From Nitrospinae bacterium RIFCSPLOWO2_12_FULL_45_22 (GTDB lineage Bacteria; 2-12-FULL-45-22), in assembly GCA_001803565.1 (NCBI GenBank), contig MHDQ01000064.1:1-7805 (forward strand): DNA of 7,805 nt, written 5' to 3'. Under the pieces are notes generated by a model that saw only the letters and a list, made by a program, of their open reading frames with translations, was not told where the DNA came from and did not search any database. The translations under genes were made by a program, and so were the position numbers. The stretch's first letter is position 1; each line of letters begins with the position of its first letter. Shown in pieces: positions 4,869 to 5,114 of this stretch.

Positions 4869-4876
4869 CTGTTGAT
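4869..4876. repeat. Left copy of 8-bp direct repeat (probable target-site duplication)
   Basis: CTGTTGAT directly abuts the left terminal inverted repeat of the element at 4877. An identical copy directly abuts the right end at 5107-5114. A near-copy, CTGTTAAT, sits immediately to the left at 4861-4868, so a chance contribution from pre-existing repetition cannot be fully excluded. Confidence 0.8.
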
Positions 4877-4893
4877 GTAAGTATTCAGTAAAC

Positions 4894-4924
4894 CACGAGA
4901 TTAACACGAGATTATCACAAGATT
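4894..4924 (+). repeat. Left subterminal array of three CACRAGATT units
   Basis: CACGAGATT (4894-4902), CACGAGATT (4905-4913) and CACAAGATT (4916-4924) repeat with an 11-bp period, close to one helical turn. Such phasing would put all copies on one face of the DNA, as expected for protein-binding subterminal repeats of a transposable element. The binding role is inference. Confidence 0.85.
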
Positions 4925-5015
4925 TTCCTCCTAATCTCTAAACTATCCTTGCCAAAATTTAATAGCAACCCAACCTTTTTCCTTGTAGCCTTCAAATAAT
5001 TTAAAAGTTGTGCCC

Positions 5016-5027
5016 GGGGTGCACCCC
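5016..5027. repeat. Perfect 12-bp palindrome in the middle of the MITE-like element
   Basis: GGGGTGCACCCC reads the same on both strands. It lies where GxxExxY similarity begins, so it may mark the junction of an internal deletion. It is markedly more GC-rich than the rest of the element. Confidence 0.8.
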
Positions 5028-5043
5028 GCCATTTCTCCTCATT

Positions 5044-5072
5044 ATCTTGTGTAAATCTTGTGAAATCTTGTG
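5044..5072 (-). repeat. Right subterminal array of three CACAAGAT(T) units, inverted relative to the left array
   Basis: On the minus strand, CACAAGATT (5072-5064), CACAAGATT (5062-5054) and CACAAGAT (5051-5044) repeat every 10-11 bp. They mirror the left array at 4894-4924. The right arm has about 16 extra bases between the 17-bp terminal repeat and the first unit compared with the left arm. Confidence 0.85.
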
Positions 5073-5106
5073 GTTTCATTAAAAACGGGGTTCAGTGAGT
5101 ATTTAC

Positions 5107-5114
5107 CTGTTGAT
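5107..5114. repeat. Right copy of 8-bp direct repeat (probable target-site duplication)
   Basis: CTGTTGAT directly abuts the right terminal inverted repeat ending at 5106 and is identical to 4869-4876. Its last base is also the final base of the barrel gene's TAA stop (5114-5116), so insertion occurred just after the stop codon without altering the protein. Confidence 0.8.

Follow-up and report, generated by a model that had tools for sequence, protein, structure and literature searches.

Insertion sequences of the IS66 family generate 8-bp target repeats, as described for ISPpa5a and ISPpa7 (PMC3281130) and for ISDge4, whose ends read GTGACTACTCAGCA and GTAACTGCTCAGCA (PMC12898284). We analysed a 7805-nt stretch of DNA from Nitrospinae bacterium RIFCSPLOWO2_12_FULL_45_22 (the window), in which a 230-bp segment without transposase (4877–5106) separates two genes of an electron-transfer operon. 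Judged from its sequence, this segment is very probably (probability about 0.92) a non-autonomous element with IS66-type ends and a GxxExxY-derived interior that was mobilised in trans and inserted after the stop codon of a porin gene with duplication of 8 bp.

The 8-bp direct repeat CTGTTGAT is located at 4869–4876 and 5107–5114 and directly abuts the inverted ends, both of which terminate exactly at it. The left terminal inverted repeat GTAAGTATTCAGTAAAC (4877–4893, plus strand) and the right one, GTAAATACTCACTGAAC (reverse complement of 5090–5106, read inward), match at 13 of 17 positions; the mismatches between the two ends at 4/17 bases are counter-evidence to our reading. Inverted arrays of ~10–11-bp units sit just within the terminal repeats, the left one (4894–4926) consisting of three ~11-bp units (CACGAGATTAA, CACGAGATTAT and CACAAGATTTT) and the right one (5044–5076), ATCTTGTGTAAATCTTGTGAAATCTTGTGGTTT, being inverted relative to it. 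We counted perfect 8-bp direct repeats abutting inverted ends with at least 13/17 matches at a spacing of 150–400 bp. This configuration occurred once in the real window and at a mean of 0.002 per window in 500 dinucleotide shuffles, i.e. about once in 500 shuffled windows. A first-pass annotation, made from the letters alone, had described this 246-bp spacer with its duplication, ends and subterminal arrays, and all three features were borne out.

The element is flanked by two genes on the minus strand, encoding an MtrB/PioB-like outer-membrane porin (PF11854; 5114–7060) and an MtrC/MtrF-like multihaem cytochrome (PF22113; 2816–4834); another multihaem cytochrome is encoded upstream of the porin. 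The placement between two electron-transfer genes proposed earlier was thus confirmed, as was a residual gap of 41 bp, which remains when 238 bp are subtracted from the 279 bp between 4835 and 5113. The target and the porin stop codon have one base in common, the last of the codon and also of the right repeat copy, so that the stop is kept. The AGGAGG ribosome site of the cytochrome gene is intact beside the insertion, and the operon is probably little affected beyond a longer spacer and leader. The order is represented by one further genome; there, a porin homologue (45% identity) is followed ~15 bp downstream by a different cytochrome gene and there is no element; an empty site with a single CTGTTGAT was not found in this one relative, where the gene downstream of the porin differs.

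The spacer might instead belong to the ancestral sequence of the operon, perhaps as a regulatory hairpin, the repeats having arisen by chance. The minus-strand RNA of the element can indeed pair its two arrays. However, its folding was not exceptional compared with shuffled sequences (z=−1.67), and on this ground an RNA hairpin was rejected as the reason for the element. Searches yielded no Rfam match, no terminator and no match in plasmid DNA. The rarity of the combined ends and repeat in shuffled windows and a 96%-identical copy (C67), which lies at an unrelated site with a perfect duplication of its own, make an ancestral origin exceedingly improbable.

The source genome is a draft of 3.67 Mb in 321 contigs (85% complete) and contains further copies of the element: C67, C66 (77% identity), C114 (73%), C96 and C297. 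The duplication at C67 is GGCATCCT (8/8) and that at C114 is TATCCAGT/TATCCGGT (7/8). An element on C275, related to the window element by its ends only, is flanked by CCTCAAAC (8/8), while no target duplication was present at the borders of C66 and C96. The search suggested with the first-pass annotation, for copies that share the ends but differ in their 8-bp flanks, was therefore positive, and the element has the features of a MITE: it is short, lacks a transposase and occurs in several same-end copies with different target duplications. The window copy and C67 carry the same deletion scar at two sites with different duplications, and the palindrome CGGGGTGCACCCCG at the deletion junction (5015–5028) is common only to these two. 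Because the identical internal deletion is found at another site, we conclude that the defective, transposase-free form itself moved.

The interior of the element contains a minus-strand ORF of 54 aa (4915–5079), which reads MKPQDFTRFTQDNEEKWRGAPRAQLLNYLKATRKKVGLLLNFGKDSLEIRRKIL. Its N-terminus is encoded by the right array, its stop codon lies within the left array, and the middle of the gene is deleted. The C-terminal part scored 37.7 bits against the NCBIfam model TIGR04256 (GxxExxY; cut-off 35), covering model positions 82–115 only, and also matches PF13366. As it lacks a complete domain bearing the GxxExxY motif, the ORF is by its sequence a remnant of a GxxExxY gene (PD-(D/E)XK-like) and not a working member. 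A longer portion of the gene is retained in C96, and the deletions differ among the window copy (shared with C67), C66, C114 and C96. We rejected selection on the short ORF: the reading frame is lost through the deletions of C66 and C114 but kept in C64/C67, so that there is no sign of such selection. The earlier interpretation as a MITE-like transposition product stands with respect to structure and event. The element is not an anonymous MITE, however, but descends, by deletion, from an element that carried a GxxExxY gene. Likewise, no transposase is encoded, as had been stated, but the 54-aa ORF had been missed and the family, which had not been recognised, can be named as IS66-type.

This assignment rests on the ends, which start with GTAA and are of the IS66 type. 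Over 17 bases, the left end is identical to both ends of L179, an element of a Spirochaetaceae MAG that encodes an IS66 transposase and a DruA-like protein; the same pattern was found in L203, L122, L138 and L209. We scanned 84 980 genomes with the 18-base degenerate end pattern GTAARTATTCAGTRAACC and obtained at least 117 loci. Those listed span Planctomycetota, Omnitrophota, Elusimicrobia, Aerophobetes, Firmicutes, Spirochaetes, Chloroflexi and others. By our own estimate, tens of exact matches are possible by chance alone in such a collection, and the weight therefore rests on the paired loci. Among the matches listed, a duplication of at least 7/8 was located exactly at the predicted border in 11 of 39 pairable loci, and 12 shifted controls gave a total of one. 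Ten of the 11 duplicated loci, at 83–368 bp, are too short to hold a transposase. The remaining one, L203 of Peptococcaceae SCADC1_2_3, is a complete element of 3272 bp with the perfect 8-bp duplication GAATTTTT; it has genes for an IS66 transposase and a DruA-like protein as well as a third ORF. In L179 (2619 bp), the inverted ends are perfect over 22 bp and begin with GTAAGTATTCAGTAAAC, and there is no target duplication. IS66 and/or DruA sequence was found directly inside a GTAARTATTCAGTRAACC-type end in six further loci, and the coding region lies inside the end in all eight listed loci with detectable IS66 or DruA sequence.

The DruA-like gene (PF14236, Druantia) directly follows the IS66 transposase gene in L203, L179, L122, L138 and L209. 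In the literature searched, we found no paper linking IS66 transposases with DruA-like genes. A Chloroflexi locus (L168, 4498–4703) has the same ends, a perfect duplication and an interior with inverted TAATTGG-type arrays.

Mobilisation by another transposase family that also makes 8-bp duplications has in its favour that no matching transposase, i.e. no IS66-DruA element with window-type ends, is present in the assembled genome (85% complete, 321 contigs). A partner in the same genome would support the assignment but is not strictly required for it. The ends of the window element agree with those found on IS66-DruA elements, among them a complete element flanked by a perfect 8-bp duplication, and we consider a different family very unlikely. 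Two candidate partners in the source genome were rejected. The sole IS66 transposase found, located on C275, extends into an N gap and seems to begin with an end of another sequence, GTAACCGTTCACC, and the only DruA match (C73) is below the cut-off and spurious. At L078 (3945–4006; G000:C275), a 9-N gap connects the IS66 transposase frame with another gene, and the same ~25 bases recur on its two sides; this junction is probably a scaffolding artefact.

GxxExxY genes without IS66-type ends also occur in the source genome, and most of them have inverted arrays, of other sequences, on both sides. A comparison of upstream and downstream arms covered 71 GxxExxY loci, drawn from about 30 genomes in many lineages. 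The mean match score between the two arms of a locus was 17.7, compared with 9.15 (sd 0.31) for arms re-paired between loci and 8.6 for control windows, and 48 of the 71 loci scored above every control window. Re-pairing removes the effect of shared motifs; it leaves the kinship of copies from the same genome, but this would raise the re-paired scores, not lower them. The array sequence varies between copies, while the two arms of one copy match. Since GxxExxY loci are generally enclosed by matching inverted arrays, the inverted subterminal arrays of the window element belong to the GxxExxY cassette.

The arrays consist of ~8–11-bp units (CACAGAGG, CACAAAGG, CACAGATT and others), for example at G000:C232:6248–6592 and G000:C84:5978–6328. 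One GxxExxY gene (G048:C1:730416–730766) has unusually long matching arms, in which GGGGAGAGGG-type repeats extend over more than 80 bp, and about ten GxxExxY genes or fragments lie within 41 kb of a single chromosome (G141:C1:786477–827837). In a Brocadiaceae locus (L151, 572–1370), a GxxExxY fragment and array lie inward of an exact GTAARTATTCAGTRAACC end match, at a distance of about 100 bp or more; another small element is nested alongside, and the nested ends leave the borders uncertain. No GxxExxY was found among phage proteins, and the literature searched contained nothing relevant on GxxExxY, PF13366, DUF4338 or DruA with IS66.

The cassette could itself be the mobile unit: the PD-(D/E)XK-like protein of the GxxExxY gene would move this gene and the inverted arrays around it, and the GTAA ends would be a mere outer shell. 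Matching inverted arrays at most GxxExxY genes of other genomes would suit this explanation, as would the fact that 0 of the 71 loci had inverted ends bordered on the outside by an 8-bp duplication. However, the 8-bp duplications of the window element's family abut the GTAA ends, not the arrays, and most of the nuclease domain is gone from the window copy, yet the same deleted form is present at two sites. Movement by the cassette's own protein is thus very unlikely. In a tentative and rather doubtful extension, GxxExxY genes may be widespread mobile or IVS-like cassettes with copy-specific matched inverted arrays, on whose arms the PD-(D/E)XK-like protein would act; the window element would have arisen from a cassette of this sort by capture in an IS66-type shell and subsequent deletion.

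With regard to the origin of the IS66-ended element, we propose the following order of events. The starting point would have been a unit with IS66-type ends and, inside it, a GxxExxY gene with inverted short-tandem arrays on both sides. This gene would then have lost its middle, and the defective form would have moved again, as the same deletion at two sites with different duplications suggests. Insertion of this form into CTGTTGAT just after the porin stop codon, with duplication of 8 bp, would have been the work of a trans-acting IS66 transposase, whose source was most likely an element with an additional DruA-like gene.

Taken together, an unexplained spacer of an electron-transfer operon becomes a recognisable mobile insertion, and an end sequence common to small elements of many uncultured phyla gains a family name, IS66-type. 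Our data also connect GxxExxY cassettes that have matched inverted arrays to IS66 transposases and DruA-like proteins, three subjects that no paper we found treats together. The matched-array pattern is simple and testable for a common gene family that is nearly absent from the literature searched. Transposase-free IS66-type elements such as the window element are ordinary; the GxxExxY cassette enclosed by arrays is more unusual and deserves more attention.

In comparison with known systems, the window element shares with the IS66 family (the ISBst12 group, e.g. ISDge4, as well as ISPpa5a and ISPpa7) the GTAA/GTGA-starting ends, a TTCA/CTCA core and 8-bp duplications (PMC12898284, PMC3281130). 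It differs in its size of 230 bp and the lack of a transposase, and its partner group has a DruA-like gene beside the IS66 transposase. Like MITEs, it is short and has inverted ends, target duplications and several copies but no transposase; unlike them, its interior derives from a passenger gene (GxxExxY) and not from a deleted transposase gene. GxxExxY proteins (TIGR04256; PF13366, PDDEXK_3) are represented by a remnant above the TIGR04256 cut-off, but most of the domain is deleted and the gene is not active. The mobile insertion cassettes (MICs) of Bacillus cereus likewise consist of insertion-sequence ends around a passenger gene without transposase (PMC3281130), whereas the family described here has IS66-type ends and a passenger that is broken in every assembled copy.
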